From the NCBI GenBank assembly GCA_002189035.1, contig NEEC01000002.1:6037001-6101000 (forward strand): a DNA stretch of 64,000 bases, read 5' to 3'. Each line of letters starts with the position of its first letter. Position 1 is the first letter of the stretch. Below, piece after piece: positions 44,235-60,924 of this stretch. The notes beneath the pieces were generated by a model. That model was not told where the DNA came from. It did no database searches and saw nothing but the letters and a program-made list of their open reading frames with translations. The DNA comes from Utricularia gibba. Lineage: Eukaryota > Streptophyta > Magnoliopsida > Lamiales > Lentibulariaceae. A program made the position numbers and the translations under genes.

Positions 44235-45134
44235 CCCGGAAAATCCTCTTCTCTCTCACCCAATCACAATTCTCTCGCGATGGAGATCTCTGCATCACTT
44301 GCGCTGCACTCCCCCACCGTCGAGCTAAACCCAGCTGACCAATACCGTACCACCTCCATTAAAAAAGCCTTCGATTAAACTTTGAGGAAATTGCCAAAAT
44401 GGTCTCAAATTTTAACCTAATTACCTTTAGTCTCATGAACAAAAATTGTGAAATTCTCAAAGTTCGGGGACTAGAAAGATATTTTTTTAATATTAAGGGC
44501 TAAGAAAATAATTTTTGTAACAGTTGGGGATTCACTCAGATTTCAGAAGATGATAAATCAATAATTTAAAGGGCCTCCCGAAACAACTGTAGGAAAGAAT
44601 TTTAGGCGTTATCCGACGGTCGTAGATTCAGCCGCCGCTCCGTCGTCTCTCCCACGAATTCTGTGACAAAACTTCGGTACGCCTCCTTTAAGACGATTTT
44701 GTCGCTTCAAAATTCAGGGGATTGATCTAGAGAATCGAATTTAGGGTTTGTCTGTTAAATCCGACGATCAGCCACGTTAATCTGATTTCCTTTTTCAGTT
44801 TGCGCGGGAGCTACCAAGATGTTTTTTGACATACATAATATTTTGATCTGGCTATGCTTCGTTTGATGCTTTTCAATTTTTTCTCTTGGGTGATAAACTT
44901 TTCAGATAGTTTGAGTAGAAAAGAATGAAATTTGGATGCGTGTGATTCAATTAGCGGTACTTATGTTTCTTCTTGGGGATGCAAAACTAAATTTTGCTGC
45001 CCAGTTGTAGTCTTGTTTTTTTCCCTGTTTGTTACCGTCTAGAATTGTGCCAATTCGTGGAATCACGGTAGGCTAATGACTCTTGGGGTCTACGTTTTCG
45101 TAGGTTGAATAAAAAGCTGTATATTTATCAGGCA
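44235..45134. other. Divergent promoter and SYP51/52 leader
   Basis: This stretch lies between the start of the minus-strand xylosyltransferase and the plus-strand syntaxin. The syntaxin leader probably begins near 44,600 and is interrupted by an intron (possible donor GTACGC at about 44,678). DNA from about 44,918 rightward is repeated at 51,926 and marks the left edge of the large duplication. Confidence 0.5.
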
Positions 45135-46640
45135 ATGGCAACTTCATCGGACTCATGGGTAAGGGAATACAATGAAGCAGTCAAACTTGCAGATGACATC
45201 AGTAGTATGATAAGTGATAAAAGTTCATCACAAGCAACGGGGCCAGAAGCACAGAGGCATTTTTCTGCAATGAGGAGGAAAATTACTATACTGGGAACTA
45301 AGCTTGATGGCCTAGATGGACTTTTGCCCAAGCTTCCAGGGAAACAATCTATGTAAGCATCTGGTTTCGGAGGACGTTGTTCGTTGTTATGTTCATTTTC
45401 TTTTTTATAATTGTTCTTTTTAGTGATGCAACTGAAATATCGAACACTTTGGCGTCATGTTGTCCTTTCCGCCTGAGGTTTCTAGCTCTCTAGATGTATT
45501 CCATATGGTGTGCCTGTTGATAATTACATATTGTGCACAGGGATACTGTACTTGTAAATTAAGGATCCATGTGTTTCCTAAGGCTAATTCGCCACCAAAT
45601 CATCATCTTTATCTCATGCTTTTTTTTCAGTTTGCGTTGTTTGAATTGAAATTTGGTAAATGCTTTATGCAACAGTACCACGAAGGAAATGAATCGCCGC
45701 AAGGACATGATGAACAACTTGAGATCAAAGGTAAACCAGATGGCGTCCATGTTAAACATGGCCAGTTTTGGGGATCGAAATGGATTGCTTGGTCCTGAAG
45801 TAAAACCAGCAGACGCAGTTAGCAGAATACGGGATCTTGACAACCAGGGAGTTGTTGTTCTCCAGAGACAAATCATGAGAGGCAAGTTTTTCATCCTGCA
45901 ACCTTTTATCTCGTGTGCCTTATGCTCTTTTCTTTTTCCGTTTGATCATTCATTAGTTCTTTATTCAGAACAAGATGATGATCTTGGAAAATTGGAGGAG
46001 ACAGTCGTAAGCACGAAACACATCGCACTAGCCATCAATGAAGAGCTTGGTCTTCATACCAGATTGATTGTATGTCGATAATTTTTTTTTCTTGTTAACC
46101 CTGAAATTTTTAATTTGATGCATTTGATACTGTAATATGCAGGAAAACCTGGAAGAACATGTTGACGTCACTGACTCAAGACTGCAGGTGACCTTTTTCC
46201 CCTAAGAAAACGCCTTCTTGTGTGATTGAAAATCTTTTGTAAGGTGGCACTTACCCATTAACCCGTTTGAATTTTCTGTGGTGCTACGCATATAAATAGA
46301 TGCCAATCTTCATTTCTGCTAAAGAACTTCCATGTCACTGGATTCTATCTGTTTTTTCCACTCATCCCTAATGAAAGCAATGTAGTTGGAAATTACATTA
46401 CAATTTTCGCTTCTCCGAACGTATGTTATGCTTTACTTCTAATCCATGTAACCGCATTTTCTTCAAGCAACTGAATCTTTGTTGTCAACTATTCCGCAAA
46501 TGCAACAGCGCGTGCAGAGAAAGCTTGCAATATTGAACAAGAGGACGAAGAGTGGCTGCTCCTGCTTGTCCCTGCTTCTATCAATCATCGGTATCGTGAT
46601 TCTAGCAACAGTTGTATATTTGCTGATCAGGTACCTGTAA
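45135..46640 (+). CDS. Syntaxin SYP51/SYP52 type (Qc-SNARE)
   Basis: This Qc-SNARE works in fusion at the trans-Golgi, prevacuolar compartment and vacuole. Five exons, 45135-45352, 45676-45881, 45969-46069, 46143-46187 and 46509-46640, add to 702 nt or 233 residues, the size of Arabidopsis SYP52. The N-terminal helical domain begins MATSSDSWVREYNEAVKLAD. The SNARE helix starts at VVVLQRQIMREQDDDLGKLE and runs through ALAINEELGLHTRLIENLEE, HVDVTDSRLQRVQRKLAILN. A C-terminal membrane anchor (LSLLLSIIGIVILATVVYLL) ends IRYL. The exon 2 donor is GC rather than GT (GAG/GCAAGT at 45,882), and only that choice keeps the frame. A broken second copy exists at 51,929 and 55,390. Confidence 0.95.
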
Positions 46641-47024
46641 CAACCCTGCTGCTCATATACCAGTTTCTTTGCAATTCCAAAAGAAAAAACAATGAATCCA
46701 TCAACTCGCTGAGGTTCCATATGGAAATGATTTGTGTGTAATGTGTATAAACGCTGTTTTTTTTAAATCATGCCGTGGCAATTTCTCATCATCATGCTGT
46801 TTTGTGTGTACTTTTGTGGTGTTCTGGTGTGTGTACTGTGAGCTTTCCTGTTTTGGATGGCGCTGCCATGAACCAAAATTGAAACTTCAGGATTTGAAGC
46901 TATTCAGCCGCACTTTCCCAGTTTCTTTTTTTAGCAAGGGGCGACAACGTGTCGGCGTGTCCAAGTACGTTGACTCGGTGCAATTTGCACAGTCGAACAG
47001 ATACGGATTAAAAGGACGGTTCTT
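46641..47024. other. Spacer between SYP51/52 and wax synthase 1
   Basis: This convergent spacer holds the 3' untranslated regions of both genes. About 46,680-46,990 is repeated at 55,480-55,760, which helps to define the large duplication. Confidence 0.6.
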
Positions 47025-48062
47025 TTACAAGGAAAGTTTACTCTTTAAAAATGTAGCCATCATGGAGTACTCGTTTATGACTCTCGTGTCAATCCCGCTA
47101 CTTGTGATATGCGGGAAAAACAGCCAAGCTCCGGTGATGCCCATAAAGCCAAGTGTCAGCACTCGCGACACGGCTACCGGCGGTGACCAACCACCGCGAC
47201 TCGCCACCGCCTTCTTCACCTCGATCTCCACGGCGACGCAAACTCCGTGTAGTACAAAAAACCCCGTCATCTCCCAAGTGGGAGCGGCACGCGACATGTA
47301 GTAAAAAATCAATTCGTGCATCAGACCTGACACAGAGAACGTCGCAATGATAGCTGACAGCCGCGCCCAGGTGTTGCCGAGGAGGCGCGTGGAGATACGA
47401 CGCACCGGAGAGTAGACGGCGGCGTGGAGGATTGTAGTGACCACGAGATTCCATCGCCGGCCCCAGAAATCCTGCAACGACGTCGCTAAATACGGTTCGT
47501 CGAACTGCGGGTCGAGCCTGTTGCCGAGGAAGGCTCGCACCGGTAAGGCTGTGAGTGCTAGAAACACTTCCAATGCGATGTAGAGATGGCAGCAGTAAAA
47601 AGAGCAGATCAGGTAATAATTAATCGATCCTCTGTATTGGAAAAGGCTTAGAGTCACTGCTACGAGAAGAAGCTTGAAGAAGACCATAAATGTTTTTCGT
47701 TTCACAGATCCGCATTCAGTCGGAGATTCGGAGGCTGTTTGACTTTTGAGACTGATGGGCAGAAGCCCGACTGCCACGAACTGGGCGAGAGAAAGGGTCG
47801 GGTCGGCGAGAGGGCCTTTGTCGAAGGCGAACAGGAGGAGCTTGAAGTTCCCGAGCCAGACGAAGTAGAAGAAAGCGGGACCGCCGATATTTATGTAACG
47901 GTTGATGCCGAAGGGGAGAGTGGAGAAGAGATAAACGACAGGGAGGAGAGGGAGGATCCTGGCGCCGCCGCTGGGAAGCCTGCGGACGACCTGATGGGAG
48001 AAGATAAGAGAGACGACGCCGGTAATCCAGAGTTGAACAAAGGATCGAATTTCAGGGTCCAT
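47025..48062 (-). CDS. Long-chain-alcohol O-fatty-acyltransferase (wax synthase), copy 1
   Basis: Plant wax synthases of the MBOAT superfamily make wax esters from fatty alcohols and acyl-CoA in the ER membrane. The gene is a single exon of 345 residues, the normal length. About eight hydrophobic segments are visible, starting with SFVQLWITGVVSLIFSHQVV and LPLLPVVYLFSTLPFGIN. The conserved family box DFWGRRWNLVVTTILHAAVY and the MBOAT histidine region SVSGLMHELIFYY are intact. The ATG at 48,062 begins MDPEIRSFVQ, shared by all three copies here. A TATA-like TATATAAAG lies about 50 bp upstream at 48,112-48,120. It is the only copy that belongs to the left duplicated unit and has a clean full-length frame. 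Confidence 0.93.
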   Translation of the reverse strand: MDPEIRSFVQLWITGVVSLIFSHQVVRRLPSGGARILPLLPVVYLFSTLPFGINRYINIGGPAFFYFVWLGNFKLLLFAFDKGPLADPTLSLAQFVAVGLLPISLKSQTASESPTECGSVKRKTFMVFFKLLLVAVTLSLFQYRGSINYYLICSFYCCHLYIALEVFLALTALPVRAFLGNRLDPQFDEPYLATSLQDFWGRRWNLVVTTILHAAVYSPVRRISTRLLGNTWARLSAIIATFSVSGLMHELIFYYMSRAAPTWEMTGFFVLHGVCVAVEIEVKKAVASRGGWSPPVAVSRVLTLGFMGITGAWLFFPHITSSGIDTRVINEYSMMATFLKSKLSL

Positions 48063-48957
48063 GGCGGATGCAAACGCAGAGTTCGGGTTGCCGCAATGCA
48101 GCGCAGACCTTCTTTATATATTCACACCCACCACGTGGCGATGAACTCCACAAATGAATAGCCTCCGCCGCCCTCCAACATACAAAATCAGCCAGCACGC
48201 AGCCTGCGGCGTCCGACCTGACCGTGCTCCCGTCAGCAACGTTTTTTACTTGCCCCAACTGCACTGTGATTTGACCAAATTAGCCACGTTGACTTTACCA
48301 CATTATAATCAATTTATTCATTATATATATCGTGCCCATTTTTTATCCCATGTTGGCCACTTTTTTAATACAAACATCGATAATGTGGGGTTAATAATAG
48401 ATTTGAATTTAATTCTATTTATAATACATTAAATCAGATTTAATAATTTTTAATCATATTTTAAAATATTTACGAAAAATATAAATTGTTATTTAAATGA
48501 ATTTAATAAATTATTCAATTTATTCATGAATCTGATGTAATAACTTGTCATAGTGAAAATTGAAATGACCTTATATCAATCTCATTTCCATTACAAAGAT
48601 AGAGATCAATTTCAATAATCATGTAAATTTTATACGAGTTCTTTTTTTGAGCACATATGAGCATTACTATGGGTCTATTTGGTATAGCTTCAAAAAATAA
48701 CTTCAAAAACGTGATTCTAGAAGTAATTATGTTTTTTATGGAGTAAAATTATCCCAACTTCTAAAAAAATCGAAATGTTTTATTATTTCAATTTCATGTG
48801 AAACAGAAACAACACGTATTTTGTTTGATGATCACTTCTAGAAATGCTTCTAGTGAATCACAAGCTGTACCAAACATACCCTAATTTTTCGAGCACATAT
48901 CAGCATTATGTGCAAATTTACAGTGTCGAACAGATACGGATTAAAATGACGGTTCTT
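48063..48957. other. Wax synthase 1 upstream region
   Basis: About 48,175-48,560 is clearly related to 50,755-51,005, the region upstream of wax synthase 2, showing that gene plus promoter were duplicated. A MITE follows at 48,671-48,881. No gene is present. Confidence 0.65.
48671..48881. mobile_element. MITE with about 20-bp terminal inverted repeats
   Basis: The left end GGGTCTATTTGGTATAGCTT and the reverse complement of the right end GGGTATGTTTGGTACAGCTT match at 17 of 20 bases. The element is 211 bp long, non-coding and flanked by TAT and TAA, near-identical three-base flanks. The ends suggest a PIF/Harbinger or related family. It sits between wax synthase copies 1 and 2. Confidence 0.7.
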
Positions 48958-49997
48958 TTACAAGGAAAGTTTACTCTTTACAAGTGAAGCCATCATCGAG
49001 TACTCCTCGTTTATGACTCTAGTGTCAATCCCGTTTCTGGTGGTATACGGTAAACACAGCCAAGTTCCGGTGACGCCCACAAAGACAAGTATCAGCAGTC
49101 GCGACACGGCTACCGGCGGTGACCAACCACCGCGACTCGCCACCGCCTTTTTCACGGCGATCTCCACGGCGACGCAAACTCCGTGAAGTACAAAAAACCC
49201 CGTCATCCCCCAAGTGGGAGCGGCACGCGATATGTAGTAAAAAATCAATTCGTGCATCAGACCTGACACCGAGAACGTCGCGATGACTGCTGACGGCCGC
49301 GCCCATGTGTGGCCGAGGTGGGGCGTGGAGATAAGACGCACCGGAGTGTACACGGCGGCGTGGAGGATTGTCGTGACAACGAGATTCCATCGCCGGCCCC
49401 AGAAATCCTGCAACGACGTCGCTAAATAAGGTTCGTCGAACGGCGGGTCGAGCTTGTAGCCGAGGAAGAATCGCACCGGCGCGGCCGTGAGTGCTAGATA
49501 CAATTCCGATAGGATGTAGAGATGGCCGTAGTGCAAATAGCCGGTCGGTAATAATTAAACGATTCTCTGTATTGCAAGAGGCTTAGAATCACTACTCCGA
49601 GAAGAAGCCTGAAGAAGACCAGAAATATTTCTCGTTTCACAGATCCGCAATCAGCCGCAGATTCGGAAGCTGTTTGACTTTTGAGATTGATGGGCAGAAG
49701 CCCGACTACCACGAACTGGGTGAGAGAAAGGGTCGGGTCGGCGAGAGGGCCTTTCTCGAAGGCGAACAGGAGGAGCTTGAGGTTCCCGAGACAGACAAAG
49801 TAGAAGAAAGTGGGAAGGCCGATATGTATGTAACGGTTGATGCCGAAGGGGAGAGTGGAGAAGAGATAAATGACCGGGAGAAGAGATAGGATCCTGGCGG
49901 CGCCGATGGGAAGCCTGCCGACGACCTGACGGGAGAAGATAAGAGAGACGACGCCGGTAATCCAGACTTGCACAAAGGATTGAATTTCAGGATCCAT
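48958..49997 (-). pseudogene. Wax synthase copy 2, single-base frameshift
   Basis: The sequence is homologous to copies 1 and 3 from MDPEIQSFVQ to the last residues KSKLSL. The reading frame breaks at about 49,525-49,552: the first frame ends soon after RESFNYY, and the second opens at GHLYILSELYLALTAAPVRF. Between the shared words AATTATTAC and GCCATCTC copy 1 has 22 bases and this copy 21, so one base is missing. The box DFWGRRWNLVVTTILHAAVY and SVSGLMHELIFYY remain intact downstream. Unless the base is a sequencing error, the gene cannot make a full protein. A TRIM element lies 94 bp upstream of its start codon. Confidence 0.85.
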
Positions 49998-50090
49998 GGC
50001 GGCTGCAAACGCAGAGTTTGAGTTCCGGTTGCTTAAATACACAGCAGACTTTCTTCTTAAATTAACACCAACGACGTGGACGTGGGTATG

Positions 50091-50622
50091 TGTTGAAATT
50101 GAGTATCAGATGTATCGGACGACAGTGCACTTAATCCTAATTGCACTTAACCCTAAATACACAATAAACAAGTATCATAATAGAAAAGATTAGGCTCAAC
50201 CGATTATTTGAGATATGTATTTTCTTATATACTAAACTTACATTTTCATTTTTCGATATAAAATTGTGTATTCTAACACCCGCCTTCAAGTCGAATTAGT
50301 CTTTGATCCGATTAAGACTTGTATTTTTTTTTATGTGATTGTAGATAGTGTTTCGGTCATAAATCGATCTAATTTTTTGTCGTCTAAGTTCAATACATCT
50401 CCTTGCCATCTTGGCCACCCAAGTCGAAGTCAAACGCTCTAATACCATATTGAAATTCATGATTAGATAGGTTGGACGATCGTGCACGTGAAATCTAAGT
50501 ACACAAGAAACATAGATCACAATAGAAAAAATTAGATACAATCAATTATTTGTGATGTGTAAATTATTATATACTAAACTATTGTATTTTCATTTTTCGA
50601 TGTGAGATTGTATATTCTAATG
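50091..50622 (-). mobile_element. TRIM (terminal-repeat retrotransposon in miniature)
   Basis: Two related terminal repeats, 50,091-50,278 and about 50,448-50,622, flank a 169-bp interior without coding capacity. The left repeat runs TGTTGAAATTG to TTCTAACA. On the minus strand a primer-binding site, TGGTATTAGAGC (50,436-50,447), touches the right repeat, and a purine-rich stretch (GACTTGAAGGCGGG) touches the left repeat, as required for an LTR element read on the minus strand. Flanking five-base words GTATG (50,086-50,090) and ATATG (50,623-50,627) may be a decayed target duplication. The repeats have diverged, so the insertion is not recent. Confidence 0.75.
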
Positions 50623-50627
50623 ATATG

Positions 50628-51570
50628 AATTCGGCTGGTACAAATGAATGTAGGACCTCACTATATTATATACGTGATTAATTACTAATAATTTATTATT
50701 TACATAATTATTTCATTTTCAAATGTCAATCTAAATCATTTCTTTAGTATTAAAAACATCAGCCAGCGCCGCACGCGGCAGTGTCCAACCATGCTCCGGT
50801 CAACAACGTTGTTGACTTGCCCCAACTCCACCATCGGTAATGTGGGGTTAATGATGCATTTGGATTTAACTCTCTTTATAATACATTAAATCAGATTTAA
50901 TATCTTCGAATCATATTTTAAAATATTCAGGAAAATAGAAATTATTATTTAAATGAACTTAATAAATTATTCAATTTATTCATGAATTTGATGGAATAAT
51001 TTGTGTCATTGAATATTAAAATAATCTAATACTAATCTCATATCAAAGTAAAGATCAAGTAGAATAATCATGTAAGTTTTATAAAAGTTCTTTTTCAAAT
51101 ACATATGAGCATTATTAATAGTAACACCTAATTTGAATTTGATAAGTTTTTTTTATGTAATTGTATCAAATGTTTAGGAACATAATTTTAATTTTCTATA
51201 GTTTTAAATTTTAATAGATTAAATCATGGTTTTATAATAATATTTTAATAAATATAGTTAAAATTTAATAAATCTTAATCAACTTAAAATCATAATTAAA
51301 CAATTCAATGAGTTTAAATCGTTTTTGAAATATTGATCATAGCAATCTATTCCAATAGAACCATTTCAACCCCGCGTAGAATAAGGATAACAAAAATGAA
51401 TAGTTGAATTTATAATTATAAAGGATAATTACAATAATTAATTTTAATTAAAAAGGTTTATGAATGGGCAGAGAGAGGAGAGAGTATATATGGTGAGGAG
51501 GTGCTAGGCGGCGTAGGAAGACGGCGACTAATGCAAGTATCAGGGCATGGCCGGTGTAAATTATGGGAGA
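50628..51570. other. Displaced upstream region of wax synthase 2 and AT-rich spacer
   Basis: The DNA at about 50,755-51,005 is the counterpart of the wax synthase 1 upstream region, now separated from its gene by the TRIM element. The rest is AT-rich. No gene is present. Confidence 0.6.
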
Positions 51571-51606
51571 TTCTCCATTCTCCAGTGCGGGGAGGTTGCG
51601 CGGCAG

Positions 51607-51928
51607 TCACGAGATTCCGATGGTCTTTCCGAGCAGCCACAGGAAGAGCGACAGCTCGAAGCAGAAGACGGTGTGGAGAGAGCTCCTGTCGAGCACGAAC
51701 CCGTATATCGTGATCCCCGCTCCGTTCTTCTCCAAGTACGACACTGCGCCACATTTTCAGGAACTCAAGAGTCAGATGGAACGCCCTGATGATTCCCGGC
51801 GCAACAGAGCAGGCTGCAAGTACGGCGTACCCAAGGCTTGCCTTCTGTGGTATGAGGCTGCATTGTAGGATACAGTCGTCATCTTCTTCGTCCTCCTCGT
51901 GATCCGATTCCTCAGCCATCTCGTCGAA
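51607..51928 (-). pseudogene. 3' fragment of a DUF3537 (GRL) gene at the duplication junction
   Basis: This is a partial copy of the gene at 59,436-60,924. It keeps the last exon (51,607-51,743), the small last intron and part of the exon before it, up to FDEMAEESDHEEDEEDD. Compared with the intact gene it lacks five bases (CGCAT) after GATGAC, which breaks the frame. All upstream exons are missing: the homology stops at TCGTCGAA (about 51,928), where sequence of the syntaxin leader begins. It is non-functional and marks the breakpoint of the large tandem duplication. Confidence 0.88.
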
Positions 51929-52079
51929 AAGAATGAAATTTGGGTGAGTGAGATTCAATTAGCGGTACTTATGTTTCTTCTTGGAGATGCAAAACTAGGG
52001 TAATGGCTCTTGGGATTTGGGAACTATGATTTCTTAGGTTGAATAAAAAGCTGTATATTTATCAGACAATGGCAACTTC
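51926..52079 (+). pseudogene. 5' fragment of a duplicated SYP51/52 gene
   Basis: From GAAAAGAATGAAATTTGG onward the sequence matches the intact syntaxin gene from 44,918 to its start codon (with a deletion in the leader), including AGGTTGAATAAAAAGCTGTA and ATGGCAACTTC at 52,069-52,079. It ends exactly where a Copia LTR begins, in codon 4. Promoter and first leader part were never copied. The matching 3' end of this copy lies at 55,390-55,800. Confidence 0.85.
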
Positions 52080-52553
52080 TGTTGGAGAATTTGGTTTTGG
52101 GAAGAGGATTTAGAGGCGTGGAGCTTTTGCAAGGAACAGATTGTGAATTGTGGCAAACCTTTTTTTCTTCAGAGAGAATTGTATTGACGTACATTGGTAT
52201 TCTTCTATTTATAGGCTTAACTTTCAACCGTTGGAGAAAATTACCGTTGGAGTACTTTGAGACTTCACTGCTTGCAGTGCCACAGCCTATTCCCTCTAGG
52301 CTGGTTTCTTTACGCAATCTGCTTTCCTTCGGTCTTGGACCGTTTCTTCAACTTGGCTTTTATGGTCGTTGGACTGTGAGTGCAGAGCCTTAGACCAGCA
52401 TGCGCCCAATAACATAAGCCCGGTTTTGCTTCCATCTTCTCCCTTCTTCTCGACAGATTTCACCGATGCTTGACTCTCCTTCGCTGATTCTTCGTTTCTG
52501 CGTGTGCCTTCTTCATTTAGGCTCTGAATTAATTCCTTCATCACACACCAACA
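52080..52553 (-). mobile_element. Copia long terminal repeat (3' LTR of a minus-strand element)
   Basis: The 474-bp repeat starts TGTTGG and ends CCAACA, an inverted six-base end pair. Directly inside it, on the minus strand, lies the polypurine tract TCAGGAGGAG. The outer edge lies in codon 4 of the duplicated syntaxin. A second LTR is absent at the other side, so its partner and a target duplication cannot be shown. Confidence 0.8.
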
Positions 52554-55340
52554 CTCCTCCTGATGAAGGAATTTGAATTCCGGGCCAGCATCTAGCGGAT
52601 TAGGTCTCAGCCCTAGCATGTTGCGGACTCTGTTGAAGTTCTTCCGGAATAGACAATTCGTTAGGATATGGGCGGCCTGCTCCCCCATAGGTATGCAGTC
52701 CAGTTTAATCTATCCTTCCTTGATGTAGTCCCTAAGCACATGGTACTTAACTTTGATGTGTTTCGTTCTTTCGAACATCATCGGGTTTTTCGCTATGCTG
52801 ATAGCCGATTTATTGTCTATTTTCAATACTACAGGCTTGGTGATGTTGATCTTCAGGTCGTTGAATAGTTTGATTATCCACTGCACATGATTCGCAGCAG
52901 ATGCGCCAGCCACATACTCTGCCTCAGCAGAGGATTAAGTGAATGTGCCTTGTTTCCTGCTATTCCAAGAGAATGCAGCTGATCCCAGGTTGAATAAGTA
53001 TCCCCTCGTGGAATGACAATTGTCTTCATCCCCTGCGAAGTCTGAATCTACGAATCCTTGCAGGTTAGGTTCTGTTCCCTTCTTGAAATATAGGCCGAAA
53101 TTTTGTTGTGGCTTTTAGATAACGAATTATTTTCTTTGCCACATCCAAGTGCACTGTGTGTGGCTTGTGCATGTACCTAAAGAGGAATGAAACTGCAAAA
53201 GTAATATCAGCTCGTGTCGCCGTGAGGTACATCAATGCTCCCACTATTTTCTGAAACTCTTGAGGATCAGTCCACTCATTGTTCTATTGCTTCATTTGCT
53301 GTTTCATTTCAGGAGGAAATGGGACAAAGCAGTTCCTAGCATTGTGCTGTCCAAATCGGGTTATAATGTCCTATGTGTACTTTTTTTGGTTGAGGAATAT
53401 GTATTCCTCTCTTTGCAAAACTTCCATTCCCAGGAAGTAGCAGGTAAGACCTAGATCCACAAGTTTGAATTTTCTCTTCAGAAGTTCCTTTTGTTCTTCG
53501 ATCTGATCTGTATTCCTTACTGTGATAAGTATGTCGTCAACATAGAGAGTAATGATTATCTTATCTCTAGAGTCCTCTAGAATGTATAGCGAGGTGCCGT
53601 TTTTACTTCGCATGTATCCTAGCTCAAGGAAGTAGGAGTCTATGGTTCCATACCATTTTTTCGGCGCCTGCTTTCACCCGTATAGGGCCTTCTTTAATTT
53701 CAGAACCTTGTTTTTTCTTGTTTTGATCTCGAATCCAGGCGGAGGATAGACATAAACATCCTCTTGGAGTTCTCCATTTAGGAAGGCGCTTTTCATATCT
53801 AGGTGATATAATTTCCAACGAAAGCTTGCACCCATTGCCACCACCAGCTTTATGGTGTCCAGCCGAACCACAGGTGCAAATGTCTCTGCATAGTCTATCC
53901 CTGCTCTTTGCATGTAGCCAAGAGCTACCAATCTAGATTTCAACTTGTTTATGCTATAGTCAGGGTTCAACTTCGGTTTTCTTATCCATTTGAGACCGAG
54001 GATTTTGGTATTTGCAGGTTTATCAACGGCTTCCCAGACATTGTGTTTCTCAATGGAAGCGAGTTCCTCATACATTGACTTCCTCCATTCTGGATCTTTG
54101 AGGGCTTCGTGAGTGCTAAGGGGCTCATAGATCAAGAGACACATGTCTAGAATATTTTCGATGTTTCGGTACTTAGGTAGGAGGGGTCTATCACCGTTCT
54201 CGATAGTCTTCATTTTTCCCAGGGCTGGTGTCCATGAGGTGAGGGATGTAGCTGGCATAGAGGTGTCGGTCTTCGTCTGTTTCATGCTAGAGGATCTCGG
54301 AGTCTGAGATTTCTTGTAGCAACCTTGGAGCAAGAGATCAGGGGTGTCTTCTCCAGACTCGAAATTTTTTGATCCTCCAGTAAGATACTGTGCATTCTTC
54401 CTCATTGACTTGTTGTTTTTAGGCTCCAAAGAACAGCAAGTCCCATGCTCCAAGTGCGAGTCTTCAGGATCAGTTGCATCATCTTGAGTGTGGTGGGTGG
54501 AGGGGTATGTGACTCTGTCCAAACTTGAGGGAGGCTGATGCTGTAGGATATCAACTTGGGACAGTTCAGGTGAGCTGATGACTTGATATGGTCTGGGATG
54601 TGCAGGTGGGTCGTCCTCCGCGATGTCAGGGAACAGAGTCAAGAGGGAGGAGTCGTAATCCCAGTGCGTTGACACAAGGGTTGATTTGTTCAAGTCATAG
54701 GTCTTGCTTTCGTCTACGGTTACATCTCTGCTCAGCTCCACTCGGTTGGTTGGTTCTCAAGTTCAAGACTCGGTAAGCTTTACAAGTATCTCCATATCCT
54801 AGCAGAATTCCAAGGTCTGATTTCATGTCTAACTTGGTTCTTTTTTCCTTTGGAATGTGGATGTAGCATAGAGACTCAAATATTTTGATATGAGTTAAGT
54901 CAGGAACCTTGTCGTGCCAGATTTCATAAGGTGATCTGCCATCTTTAGTTCCCTTGGAAGCAAGCAGTTCAGTAGGTAAACGGCTGTGTTTACAGCTTCC
55001 CCCAGAAGCATGTAGTTATCCCTTTCTCATACATTAAACATTCGGCCATGTTCATGATGGTCCGATTCTTCCTCTCACAGATTCCGTTTTGTTTAGGGGT
55101 ATAGGGAGCGGAGAGCTAATACACGATGCCTTCAGAGTCGCATATGTGTCTCAGTTCCGTAGAAAGATATTCCCCTCCGTTATCTGAGCGCAGAGTCAGA
55201 ATCTTCTTTTCACTGTGAGTCTGAGATAATGCTTTAAGTTTGGAAGCCCTTTGAGCGCCCTCATAATCAAGTCTTGTCATATTGTTATTGACCTGAAGCG
55301 AGAAGGGGTTATAACCATATATTCCTAGAGATAGCACCAA
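52554..55340 (-). mobile_element. Ty1/copia retrotransposon, truncated and degenerate internal region
   Basis: Read on the minus strand, the order is integrase core end (LTLRSDNGGEYLSTELRHIC), reverse transcriptase (EWRKSMYEELASIEKHNVWE, VALGYMQRAGIDYAETFAPV, HLDMKSAFLNGELQEDVYVY, then ITLYVDDILI) and RNase H (DNKSAISIAKNPMMFERTKH, HVLRDYIKEG, then an ILTNCLFRKNF-like tail). This is copia order. Several frameshifts and stops break the frame, and gag, protease, the N-terminal integrase and the 5' LTR are missing at the right edge. The element cannot move by itself. Confidence 0.9.
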
Positions 55341-55389
55341 ATGATACGATAGTTTAGGATTTAGGGTTTATGGTTTAGTATTTGTGGTC

Positions 55390-55800
55390 AACTTTTCTAC
55401 AAATGCAACACTGCGTGTAGAGAAAGCTTGCAATATTGAACATGAGGATATAGAGTAGTTGCTCATATACCACTTTCTTTGCATTTCCAAAGGAATCCAT
55501 CAACTCGCTTAGTCTCCACATAGAAATGATTTGTGTGTAATGTGTATAAACGATGTCTTTTTTAAATCATGAGTTGGCAATTTCTCATCATCATGTTGTT
55601 TTGTGGGTGCTTTCTGGTGTTTTGATGTGTGTACTATGAGCTTTCCTGTTTTGGATGGCACTATCACGAACCAAGATTGGAACTTAAGGATTTGGAGCTA
55701 TTCGGCCACACTTTTCCAGTTCCCTTTTTTAGTAGGGGTGACAACGTGTTGGCGTGTCGAACAGTAAAGAGAGGCCACAATTTTTTTTACTTGGAAACTA
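55390..55800 (+). pseudogene. 3' fragment of the duplicated SYP51/52 gene and its downstream flank
   Basis: The sequence matches 46,490-46,990 of the intact locus: the last-exon start (AGAGAAAGCTTGCAATATTG) is recognisable but carries base changes and a stop (GAGTAG), and much of the membrane-anchor coding part is deleted. Downstream text such as GATTTGTGTGTAATGTGTAT is well conserved. Exons 1-4 are absent, lost with the Copia insertion and a later deletion. Confidence 0.82.
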
Positions 55801-56961
55801 TTGAAATGGAAAAACTTCAGAGCTGAAGAAGTTTATCGGGGAAAAGTGTTTCACTAAGGAGAAAAATGGGGAGGTTTACAAAGGTTGTGCAATAAGTCGT
55901 CCTTTATCCCTCAAATGTTTTCCTATTTATAGAAGAAGCTTGCTCAATCGGTTTCTGTGAATGTCAGCTAATTTCTTCGCGTGAAGATTATGTGAACTGC
56001 ACATGTGATCTTGCTAACACATAAACATTATATGCTTTGAGCTCCTACAAGTTGGTTGCTTTTCAGGTCCTATTGAAATGGTTGGGGTTTGACAGTATCT
56101 TTTTCCTACCACTACGGATAATCCATCCAATCTATTGATCGTGAGGGTTCAATTTACGAGATTAGCTGATATCGTTCTTATCGAGTTAGTTGCATAATCT
56201 CTTCCTATGGCCGATTCCCATGACCTTATTGTGCTCCATTTGGATTCTCCAATTGGTGACCCCCAGTTTTCACTTTATGTTGTGCCTTGTCTTTAGGAAG
56301 TGTGTATCTTGTCTTTTATCTCTTCTATATGGCATACACTGATTTCCAATACCACCACATGTATATACTTTGTGCATTGGATGAAAGTGAAAACAAATTA
56401 ATCACTTCCCAATCTCTTTGATATTCGTTACTTAGGAGTATGTCTTTGCATCTATCAAGGTTATTCAAGCTTATAGTAGACCATACCTGCACTTATTTAG
56501 ATGAATTTATGATGAGTAATGAGGTCTTTGAAAGGTTGTGCATCTTGTTACACGGTTATTTAGGGTTACGAACATCCAAATATGTGATTGTGTCTAAGAT
56601 AGTATCAACTTTTCTAGGGATTGTGGCCCACCATCGTAAGCAGCGCACATAGAAGGCTACATGACATGTTACTAGCGAAACCCCAACCCATGAATGAGAA
56701 TGACATTCAATTCTTTAAATACTTCCCGATGAGCTTTTTAATGCATGGTTTAATCATTGTTTGTGTACGAACAATTTGATTGGATATAGAATGCATTGGA
56801 GGCTCTTGACAGTACATGTGTGGATGTTCCAATAAAACTTGATGTTCAGGGGAGCGAGCTATTGTAATGGGAAGGGTAAAATTTATGTGAATGTAATGAG
56901 AGTTGATACACCAAACTTGAATTTTATATAAATCAACAATACAACCATGTTCTCAAAGTTG
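55801..56961. other. Spacer between the syntaxin fragment and wax synthase 3
   Basis: The sequence is mixed and partly AT-rich and holds a transposase-like remnant at about 56,440-56,865. No intact gene is present. Confidence 0.5.
56440..56865 (+). mobile_element. PIF/Harbinger-like transposase remnant
   Basis: A 70-residue frame (56,440-56,652) reads MMSNEVFERLCILLHGYLGL, then VSTFLGIVAHHRKQR, which resembles the N-terminal region of plant HARBI1-type transposase/nuclease proteins. About 160 bp downstream, ALDSTCVDVPIKL followed by QGSELL resembles the start of their catalytic part (usually 'ALDGTHV'). Frame breaks and gaps separate the pieces. Assignment is by motif memory only. Confidence 0.5.
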
Positions 56962-58011
56962 TTATTTCCCGAACACATGGATTGAGAATTCATAAAGTGT
57001 GGCCATCACCGAGTACTCCTCGTTTATGACCCTAGTGTGAATCCCGTTTCTGTTGATAGGGGGTAAATACAGCCAATCTCCGGTGAAGCCCACAAAGCAG
57101 AGTGTCAACAGTCGCGACACGGCTACCGGCGGTGACCAACCACCGCGACTCGCCACCGCCTTCTTCACCTCGATCTCCACGGCGACGCAAACTCCGTGAA
57201 GTACAAAAAACCCCGTCATCTCCCAAGTGGGAGTGGCACGTGATGCGTAGTAAAAAATCAATTCGTGCATAAGACCTGACACCGAGAACGTCGCAATGAC
57301 TGCTGACCGCCGCGCCCATGTGTCGCCGAGGAGGCGCTTGGAGATACTGCGCACCGGAGAGTAGACGGCGGCGTGGAGGAGTTTCGTGACCACAAGATTC
57401 CATCTCCGGCCCCAGAAATCCTGCAACGACGTCGCTAAATACGGTTCGTCGAACTGCGGGTCGAGGTTGTAGCCGAGGAAGGCTCGCAACGGCGCGGCTG
57501 TGAGTGCTAGAAACAATTCCGATAAGATGTAGAGATGCCAGCAGTACAAAAAAATGATCAGGAAATAATTAAACGATTCTCTGTATTGGAAGAGGCTTAG
57601 AACCACTGCTAAGAGAAAAAGCTTGAAGAAGACCATAAATGTTTTTCGTTTCACAGATTCGCAATCAGTCGGAGATTCGGAGGCTGTTTGACTTTTAAGA
57701 CTGATGGGCAGAAGCCCGACTACCACGAACTGGGTGAGAGAAAGGGTCGGCTCGGCGAGAGGGCCTTTATCAAAGGCGAACAGGAGGAGCTTGAAGTTCC
57801 CGAGAAAGACAAAGTAGAAGAAAGTGGGACCGCCGATATGCATGTAACGGTTGATGCCGAAGGGGAGAGTGGAGAAGAGATAAACGACAGGGAGAAGAGG
57901 GAGGATCCTGGCGCCGCCGCTGGGAAGCCTGCCGACGACCTGATGGGAGAAGATAAGAGAGACGATGCCGATAATCCAGAGTTGAACAAAGGATCGAATT
58001 TCAGGGTCCAT
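56962..58011 (-). CDS. Long-chain-alcohol O-fatty-acyltransferase (wax synthase), copy 3
   Basis: This single-exon MBOAT wax synthase has 349 residues when started at MDPEIRSFVQ (58,011), the start shared with copies 1 and 2; an in-frame ATG at 58,065 would add 18 residues. The hydrophobic segments and the boxes DFWGRRWNLVVTKLLHAAVY and SVSGLMHELIFYY are intact. The C-terminus differs from the other copies: after RVINEEYSVMATL it reads YEFSIHVFGK rather than KSKLSL, because the similarity to copies 1 and 2 ends at about 57,000. It belongs to the right duplicated unit. The upstream 5' flank also differs from copies 1 and 2, so expression may differ. Confidence 0.9.
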   Translation of the reverse strand: MDPEIRSFVQLWIIGIVSLIFSHQVVGRLPSGGARILPLLPVVYLFSTLPFGINRYMHIGGPTFFYFVFLGNFKLLLFAFDKGPLAEPTLSLTQFVVVGLLPISLKSQTASESPTDCESVKRKTFMVFFKLFLLAVVLSLFQYRESFNYFLIIFLYCWHLYILSELFLALTAAPLRAFLGYNLDPQFDEPYLATSLQDFWGRRWNLVVTKLLHAAVYSPVRSISKRLLGDTWARRSAVIATFSVSGLMHELIFYYASRATPTWEMTGFFVLHGVCVAVEIEVKKAVASRGGWSPPVAVSRLLTLCFVGFTGDWLYLPPINRNGIHTRVINEEYSVMATLYEFSIHVFGK

Positions 58012-59435
58012 GGTGAAAGAGATCGAGAAGTGTTGGAGAGTTTTGAGAGCTGTTGTAAGTTTCACTTGAAGACTTGCATGATTCCAACTGATTACAGGGT
58101 ATTTGTACAGAAAAATAGAGCCGTTGCCTTGTCTCTATGTGCATGTATTCATTGGGCTGTGGGCTTGTGTGAGTGGGCCTAGGCGTGAGTCCAGCAGTCA
58201 TGACTCTGTATTGGGCTTCTGTCAAGCACAATAAGGCCCAAGTTCTTGAATGAGTGAGTATTCGACTTATCAGAGCCTATTTGCACAAAGATGGGTGCCA
58301 GGTGCAAGTTTGGGGATGCCTGGGTGCAGGATTATTTTAGTAATTCGATTTTTAGAATGCGTTATATTATCTTTTATATATTAATGAATATTTTTAAATT
58401 AGTTATTATATATGATAAACTAATTTTTGTTAATATGTATATATTTTTTAAAATAATGTATCAAAAACATTAAACAATATAATAAAAATTTTTAATTTAA
58501 AAAAATATGATTAAATTGTAATAGCCTAAACATCAAATTCAACATCTAATTCTAAATCAGGGTCTTCATCTGTGATTTAACTCTTATTATCATTCTCTTA
58601 TTCTTCTCTATACAATGAGACATTGTAAGACTCATAAATCTCTTGTTTTAATGTAGAACAATAGATTAATTAATATTGAAAAGTAACACCAAATTAAGCA
58701 TAATTGACATACAACAATTTGAAAAGTTGTTGACTAAATATAAAGAAAATGTAAAATTTTAAAAATTAGATATCCAAAACATACAATATTATACAATAGA
58801 TGTGTGGATAGTAATATTTTAGGATTATTGAATCTAATCTCGAATTGAACCTATTATTGTATAATATTGATATTCACAATGATTAAGGTAATACCAATTT
58901 ACCATTTGAGTTAACATGTCCATGTAACATGTTGTGTGTTGGAAGCACTCGTAATGAATTTGTTGAAGAAGATGTCGATGGAAAAATAGAAAAGCACTCT
59001 ATCAGTGCTAAATCCATAGACATAGTAATCTTGGTGTTATTAAAATATGGATCAAATGACAATTATGGTATGTATTATGTATCTAAACAATTAAATCTCT
59101 TTATTTATTGCGATTATGATATTATCTTTTTTTATATGATTACATCACAATGTCACCTTTTTTTTTATTTAGTATAGTTTATATCAACCATAGATACCAT
59201 TTGATTACATTCGAATCAATATTTTAATGAGATGGATTCAATTATGTTATTATTACAAATATTTAAAAATGTAATAAGATATATAACGATGAAGATGATT
59301 TTGATGAAAATTTTTAAATGTAATTGTTTAAAATATTTAAAAATATAATTTTAATTTTCTATATTTTTAATATTTTGATATATTAAAACATGATTTTAAT
59401 CTTTCGTTCTCCAGTGCGGGGAGGTTGCGCGGCAG
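58012..59435. other. AT-rich intergenic region upstream of wax synthase 3
   Basis: The first 250 bp are mixed and probably hold the promoter and leader of wax synthase 3. From 58,330 to 59,400 the DNA is AT-rich with no supported gene. The 3' flank of the DUF3537 gene begins at about 59,405. Confidence 0.55.
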
Positions 59436-60924
59436 TCACGAGATTCCGATGGTCTTTCCGAGCAGCCACAGGAAGAGCGACAGCTCGAAGCAGAAGACGG
59501 TGTGGAGAGAGCTCCTGTCGAGCATGAACCCGTATACCGTGATCCCCGCTCCGTTCTTCTCCAAGTACGACACTGCGCCACATTTTCAGGAACTCAAGAG
59601 TCAGATGGAACGCCCTGATGATTCCCGGCGCAACAGACAAGGCTGCAAGTACGGCGTACCCAAGGCTTGCCTTGTGTGGTATGAGGCTGCATTGTAGGAC
59701 ACAGTCATGCGGTCATCTTCTTCGTCCTCCTGGTGATCCGATTCCTCACCCATCTCGTCGAAGGACTCGATCGTGGCGCAGACGTGCCATTTCGCTGCTA
59801 GTCCGGTGACACCCTGCGCCTTATGCGTGATCCTGGTTGCACTTCTCAGCAGTATCGTCAGCCCAGCAAGGAGGCTCACGGAGCAAACCTGCTCATCATA
59901 GAAATAGCCTTCAGCCTTCAGAAGTGAGAGGATTGCTGCAGCAAAAGGTCTACCGCGAGCTGGCCGGTGTTGCCGATGGTGTCATCGGAGGTGCTGCTAG
60001 TTGTCAGGAGAAGAGCCGCAAAAAGGCTTGCGGTGATGAAACCCAGAGCACATAGAATGAACATCCTGCGCGAAAAATGCAGGGCCTAATGTTCTAACAC
60101 CTGTTGCTCTGAAAAACAATTACCAAACGACCTGAATCTATGGCTGATTATGCGGAGATGCCTCCTGATTGTAAGATGTTCTCTAAGGACAGATTCTACA
60201 TCAGAATCGGCCTGAAAAAGCCGGGAAAAGTCGTGGAGACGGAGAATCTGAAGGTGGCAAGTGAGCCGGAAGAGAACGCAGACGAGGAAGAAGGAGACGG
60301 TTCGGTAGAACCATGAGCAGAGCTCGAGGATGCAGGCCACGGCGTTAGTCCATAAGGGCATCTGGCTCCGGCCGGAGGCGTACCACCAGATTTTGTAGGC
60401 CGCCTCCACTGCGAAACAGGGCAGCACGAAGATGAACAGAAGCTTCAAGGATGTCTGAACCAGGAAGAAAAAATAACTTCAAATAAAAATTAGAAAAAAA
60501 AACAGCGAGGAAAGCGACAAGGAAAGAATAAAGTAGGAGGTCGGTGGCGTACGTTAAACTGTTTGGTGTAATCCTTCCTGACGCTCTCGCTCACTTGGCA
60601 GAGTTTATCGAAGAACAAGAATCGCCGGAGTCCGTACTTCCGAACGAATCCCGACATGCAGATGAAGGACAGGGAGGCGACGGCGCTGAGTGAGAGCTGC
60701 GCCACGGCGTCGTACGGCCGATTATGGCCGTCGGGGAGGACGAAATGCGTGACGGCAGGTACAACCACGGTGAGTCCTAGGAATACGAACCACGAGAGTG
60801 AGGCTCTCCATGGATTCGATTGATCGAAGCATAGCCACTTCAACCATTGCCGGAATTCGCTGAGTTCATCGTACCGGCGAGGGATGCACCGTGAGTGGAG
60901 GAGGAGCGAGGCTTCGTCCGCCAT
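59436..60924 (-). CDS. DUF3537 membrane protein, gustatory-receptor-like (GRL)
   Basis: DUF3537 proteins are plant seven-helix membrane proteins regarded as distant relatives of insect gustatory/odorant receptors; their function in plants is unknown. Five minus-strand exons, 60553-60924, 60132-60454, 59954-60065, 59660-59888 and 59436-59572, total 1,173 nt or 390 residues. Landmarks are FRQWLKWLCFDQSNPWRASL, FVRKYGLRRFLFFDKLC, VLPCFAVEAAYKIWWYASG, ELCSWFYRTVSFFLVCVLFR, LQILRLHDFSRLFQADSD, LREHLTIRRHLRIISHRFR, ATRITHKAQGVTGLAAKWHV and the final TVFCFELSLFLWLLGKTIGI. An acidic loop (EESDHQEDEEDD) precedes the last intron. It is the complete right-hand copy; a broken 3' copy lies at 51,607. The ATG at 60,924 is preferred over one at 60,972 because MADEASLL fits the family. 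Confidence 0.9.

Follow-up and report, generated by a model that had tools for sequence, protein, structure and literature searches.

In the Utricularia gibba genome, a truncated syntaxin gene and a truncated DUF3537 gene meet within three bases, and an earlier note on this DNA attributed the join, together with every truncation around it, to one tandem duplication. How much of the locus can one event explain? The genome searched was the 100.09-Mb assembly (516 contigs), and the window, meaning the whole 64,000-nucleotide stretch that was analysed, is C451:6037001-6101000.

Structure of the duplicated locus

Collinearity was determined from a self-comparison of the window, in which the blocks had E values of 1e-18 or better, and from gapped alignments. 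Both units aligned in the same order, head to tail, as collinear copies. About 7 kb is duplicated in tandem, and both the duplication and its junction are real, as the earlier note had proposed. The units and aligned blocks were as follows.

44921..51928, + strand: left unit, syntaxin leader to penultimate DUF3537 exon
51926..59762, + strand: right unit of the tandem duplication (self-comparison and alignments)
44915-44989 (left), 51923-51997 (right): syntaxin leader
45069-45145 (left), 51996-52079 (right): leader and start codon
46478-46964 (left), 55381-55761 (right): syntaxin last exon and 3' UTR
47048-48064 (left), 56994-58013 (right): wax synthase
51134-51234 (left), 59296-59398 (right): intergenic
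51578-51928 (left), 59407-59762 (right): DUF3537 end

Pfam supported the gene identities given before: the assembled syntaxin carried a SNARE domain, wax synthases 1 and 3 and one half of wax synthase 2 matched MBOAT_2 (wax synthase type), and the third gene matched DUF3537. The syntaxin is presumably of the SYP51/52 type known from Arabidopsis. The genes and gene parts are listed below.

45135..46640, + strand: coding span of the complete syntaxin gene (SYP51/52 type, SNARE domain), with leader homology from near 44,680 (C304 paralogue)
47025..48062, - strand: wax synthase 1 (MBOAT_2), intact ORF, 345 aa
48958..49997, - strand: wax synthase 2, with a 1-bp frameshift near 49,540
51578..51928, - strand: DUF3537 remnant (last exon, last intron and truncated penultimate exon)
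51926..52080, + strand: start of the right syntaxin copy, a leader lacking its upstream part followed by ATG GCA ACT TC
55381..55755, + strand: what is left of the right syntaxin copy beyond its start, the 3' UTR and a portion of the last exon
56962..58011, - strand: wax synthase 3 (MBOAT_2), intact ORF, 349 aa
59407..60924, - strand: complete DUF3537 gene, five coding exons, 393 aa assembled by eye, Pfam DUF3537 E 1e-143

The contents of the units were amended in part. The left unit does hold a complete syntaxin gene, wax synthase 1 and the 3' part of a DUF3537 gene, but its wax synthase 2 is frameshifted and its DUF3537 remnant also carries a 5-bp deletion. The right unit does hold wax synthase 3 and a complete DUF3537 gene, but its syntaxin is not just a start, as 55,381-55,755 represents part of the last exon and the 3' UTR.

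The junction

The change from DUF3537 to syntaxin was abrupt in the ungapped comparison, which located the three shared bases where they had been reported, and the 500 bases around the junction occurred once in the genome. The letters at the site were GAGTAGAAAAGAATG in the syntaxin gene, CTCGTCGAAAAGAATG at the junction and CTCGTCGAAGGACTC in the DUF3537 gene.

51926..51928: junction, GAA common to the syntaxin leader (..GTAGAA/AAG) and the DUF3537 exon (..GTCGAA/GGA)

At this point the minus strand carries DUF3537 and the plus strand syntaxin, and their truncated 5' ends abut head-to-head. Because the two gene parts are on opposite strands and are not co-oriented in one transcript, a chimeric gene was ruled out, and in that sense the description of the join as a fusion of half genes does not hold.

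A microhomology of six bases (GTMGAA) was rejected: the C304 syntaxin paralogue likewise reads GAGTAG at the site, and the shared stretch is therefore three bases only. No longer homology between the endpoints was found beyond GAA in the ungapped comparison or in the comparison with paralogues. At least three shared bases are expected at a random join with a probability of ~0.05 (sum of (n+1)(1/4)^n(3/4)^2), so GAA by itself is weak evidence; a 3-bp microhomology is compatible with end joining and barely beyond chance. End joining over recombination between repeats, as suggested before, is favoured because long homology is absent and not because of GAA.

Polarity of both endpoints

Paralogues from the same genome served as outgroups, on C304 for syntaxin and on C412 and C213 for DUF3537. 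At the syntaxin endpoint (~44,920), the left-unit sequence from 44,680 to 44,962, comprising the upstream region and leader, aligned continuously to C304 (71%, E 5e-29), and the right syntaxin copy matched the same paralogue inside the leader only. The intact DUF3537 gene aligned to C412 and C213 through its endpoint (59,762). Since the complete copies are continuous with the paralogues through both endpoints, the edges are ancestral and the junction, judged by these paralogues, is the derived state. This agrees with the earlier note, which placed one endpoint of a single duplication in the syntaxin leader and the other in the penultimate exon of DUF3537.

An unduplicated homoeologous locus was sought in the same genome and was not found in the flanking pieces compared around the paralogues. 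The other genes of the locus were absent from the pieces compared around the C304 syntaxin paralogue (redundant on C241) and around the DUF3537 and wax synthase paralogues (C412, C213, C413 and C505), and a second copy of the GT61 neighbour was not found in the genome. Contig C241 matched C304 near 2.236-2.256 Mb at 99.3-99.8% identity, and its repeat part was rearranged, as in a redundant or allelic contig.

Later changes in the two units

In the right unit, the syntaxin copy runs from the junction to the fourth codon and is then interrupted by TGTTGG, the end of a copia LTR.

52081..55370, - strand: copia retrotransposon lacking its 5' part, ending before the syntaxin remnant at 55,381
55765..56990, strand not assigned: insertion with similarity to dispersed repeats, missing from the left unit

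The copia 3' LTR (~52081-52553) adjoins a polypurine tract on the minus strand, as judged by eye. Reverse transcriptase and SH3-like domains were detected by Pfam, and similarity to a copia element at C413 revealed stretches of RNase H and integrase. With the element lying in codon 4, lacking its 5' part, and the last exon resuming beyond it, this truncation is explained by a copia insertion and a deletion after the duplication, and not by the duplication itself, as had been claimed. Within the second insertion, a reading frame at 56422-56652 looked by eye like the N-terminal portion of PIF/Harbinger nucleases and had no Pfam match.

Wax synthase 2 is split by a 1-bp gap between the frames 49,497-49,997 and 48,961-49,554, and is either a pseudogene or a consensus error of the long-read assembly. 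The DUF3537 remnant has a 5-bp deletion relative to the intact gene and the paralogues, which could be less easily mimicked by such errors. Both lesions are later damage and lie outside what a single event can explain.

The values of dS among the three wax synthases were about equal (0.096, 0.107 and 0.109, with 0.107 for copies 1 and 3). Wax synthases 1 and 2 share their flanks in the self-comparison and are therefore a tandem pair of their own, which may predate or postdate the large duplication; no second wax synthase remnant was found in the right unit. Other wax synthases are ~50% identical to the three and too distant to root them. A second wax synthase pair was observed at C413:3.094-3.107 Mb, ~11 kb apart and 66% identical in DNA, with a copia element in between. 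Between copies 1 and 3, which are both intact, dN/dS was 0.77 (bootstrap 0.49-1.19), which does not demonstrate strong constraint on either and suggests relaxed or diversifying evolution.

Repeats were also found upstream of wax synthases 2 and 3.

50080..50760, strand not assigned: dispersed repeat upstream of wax synthase 2, >60 genome matches
58033..58277, strand not assigned: repeat directly upstream of wax synthase 3, replacing the upstream region common to copies 1 and 2

Wax synthase 3 is homologous to copies 1 and 2 only as far as its start codon, and its promoter may come from a mobile element. The repeat upstream of this copy (58012-58277) begins TGTTGGAGAG, in the manner of the copia LTR at 52081, which starts with TGTTGGAGAA. 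The repeat at 50080-50760 contains direct repeats (50153-50276 and 50495-50620) that are ~80% alike and 342 bases apart, and it looks like a small terminal-repeat retrotransposon (TRIM). A primer-site-like stretch was seen on its minus strand. The two repeats are more diverged from each other than wax synthase 1 is from wax synthase 2, yet the element is present upstream of copy 2 only.

Divergence of the blocks and alternative explanations

Most blocks had diverged by 6-16%, with substitutions per site of 0.060 and 0.091 in the leader blocks, 0.115 in the syntaxin exon, 0.122 in the 3' UTR, 0.158 in the intergenic block and 0.085 between wax synthases 1 and 3. Divergence was homogeneous among the syntaxin, intergenic and wax synthase 1-3 blocks (chi-square p 0.09), and these blocks are compatible with one age. 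The DUF3537 block had 8/349 substitutions (0.023) against 156/1617 in the rest (p 6e-7). Its last exon and intron had only 2/229 (0.009; p ~3e-6 compared with wax synthases 1 and 3), whereas 6 substitutions in 120 positions were counted near the junction (p 0.02 within the block, the second count being dependent on gap placement). The paralogue comparison placed both last-exon substitutions on the branch of the remnant.

A single event alone leaves the DUF3537 block over-similar for its age, and the claim of one event for everything falls short here as well, since gene conversion or some other event is required to make the last exon and intron so nearly identical. Constraint explains the similarity poorly because the remnant cannot encode the N-terminal part of the protein; a remnant kept near-identical through some function, such as supplying small RNA that acts on the intact gene, would be a most doubtful explanation. 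The simplest reading is that the last exon and intron were probably converted later by the intact DUF3537 gene, which would account for the excess similarity.

The same figures, 2.3% against 6-16% elsewhere, are what could be expected if an older duplication of syntaxin and wax synthase had been followed by a younger copying of the DUF3537 3' end to a place beside the syntaxin leader. The second event would then have had to hit the very position next to the syntaxin endpoint. The intergenic block adjoining DUF3537 (51134-51234 and 59296-59398) is collinear and as old as the rest, and the divergence rises from the last exon and intron, where it is lowest, towards the junction, like a conversion tract. 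We consider such a pair of events unlikely. The locus is rich in repeats, as would suit unequal recombination between dispersed copies at the two endpoints. A repeat was found at neither endpoint, however, nor was the long homology of non-allelic homologous recombination, and the paralogues show ancestral gene sequence on both sides with GAA alone in common. Recombination between repeats is excluded by this lack of longer similarity at the junction, and we give this origin hardly any weight. Still less credible is an assembly artefact in which two unrelated reads were joined. The assembly is partly redundant, as the 31-kb contig C241 duplicating part of C304 demonstrates, but a chimera would be identical to its sources, and the sequence on either side of the junction has diverged from its parental copy (8/349 substitutions and a 5-bp gap on the DUF3537 side, 4/67 on the syntaxin side). 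Each unit also carries different insertions, and the junction lies ~6.09 Mb into a long contig.

Discussion

The data point with good confidence to one tandem duplication that ran from the syntaxin leader into the penultimate DUF3537 exon and was followed by decay, including a probable conversion. The ancestral segment would have been syntaxin, one or more wax synthases and DUF3537. A break in the penultimate DUF3537 exon would have been joined to a break in the syntaxin leader, with at most 3 bp shared, by end joining or a replication template switch, and the incomplete copies would have decayed thereafter. In the right unit, the copia element would have inserted at codon 4 of the incomplete syntaxin, a deletion would have removed the middle of syntaxin together with the 5' part of the element, and further repeats would have entered on either side of wax synthase 3. 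The left unit would have suffered a 5-bp loss in its DUF3537 remnant and a single-base loss in wax synthase 2, and gene conversion by the intact DUF3537 gene probably replaced the last exon and intron of that remnant. The insertions, the collinearity, the junction and the direction of change at each endpoint are shown by the data; the order of the later events, the repair pathway and the gene conversion are inferred.

Among rice copy-number genes, duplication breakpoints have likewise shown micro-homology or none, and that study held NHEJ responsible for 14 cases, transposable elements for 12 and NAHR for 1 (PMC4812662); the copies at the Utricularia locus are older than these and have decayed in part, and the incomplete genes can still be read where they meet. 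The ASY3 gene of Arabidopsis lyrata also carries a tandem duplication at short direct matches (AGAGA); that one measures 78 bp, keeps the reading frame, stays inside a single exon and is associated with a phenotype (PMC7392332), whereas the Utricularia duplication spans ~7 kb and several genes and yields no chimeric protein. PMC6982007, citing Lan et al. 2017, describes Utricularia gibba tandem duplicates as enriched in lipid metabolism. The locus was not found by name in the accessible literature.

Plant duplications with micro-homology or none at their breakpoints are common, so the mechanism is ordinary and the example well preserved; it is unusual only in the legibility of the join and of the later decay. 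The known picture of how tandem duplicates originate is unchanged. The locus offers a clear teaching case of a 7-kb duplication with a junction at base resolution and with both ancestral edges traced through paralogues of its own genome, and it also illustrates the decay of such copies by insertion, frameshift and probable gene conversion.
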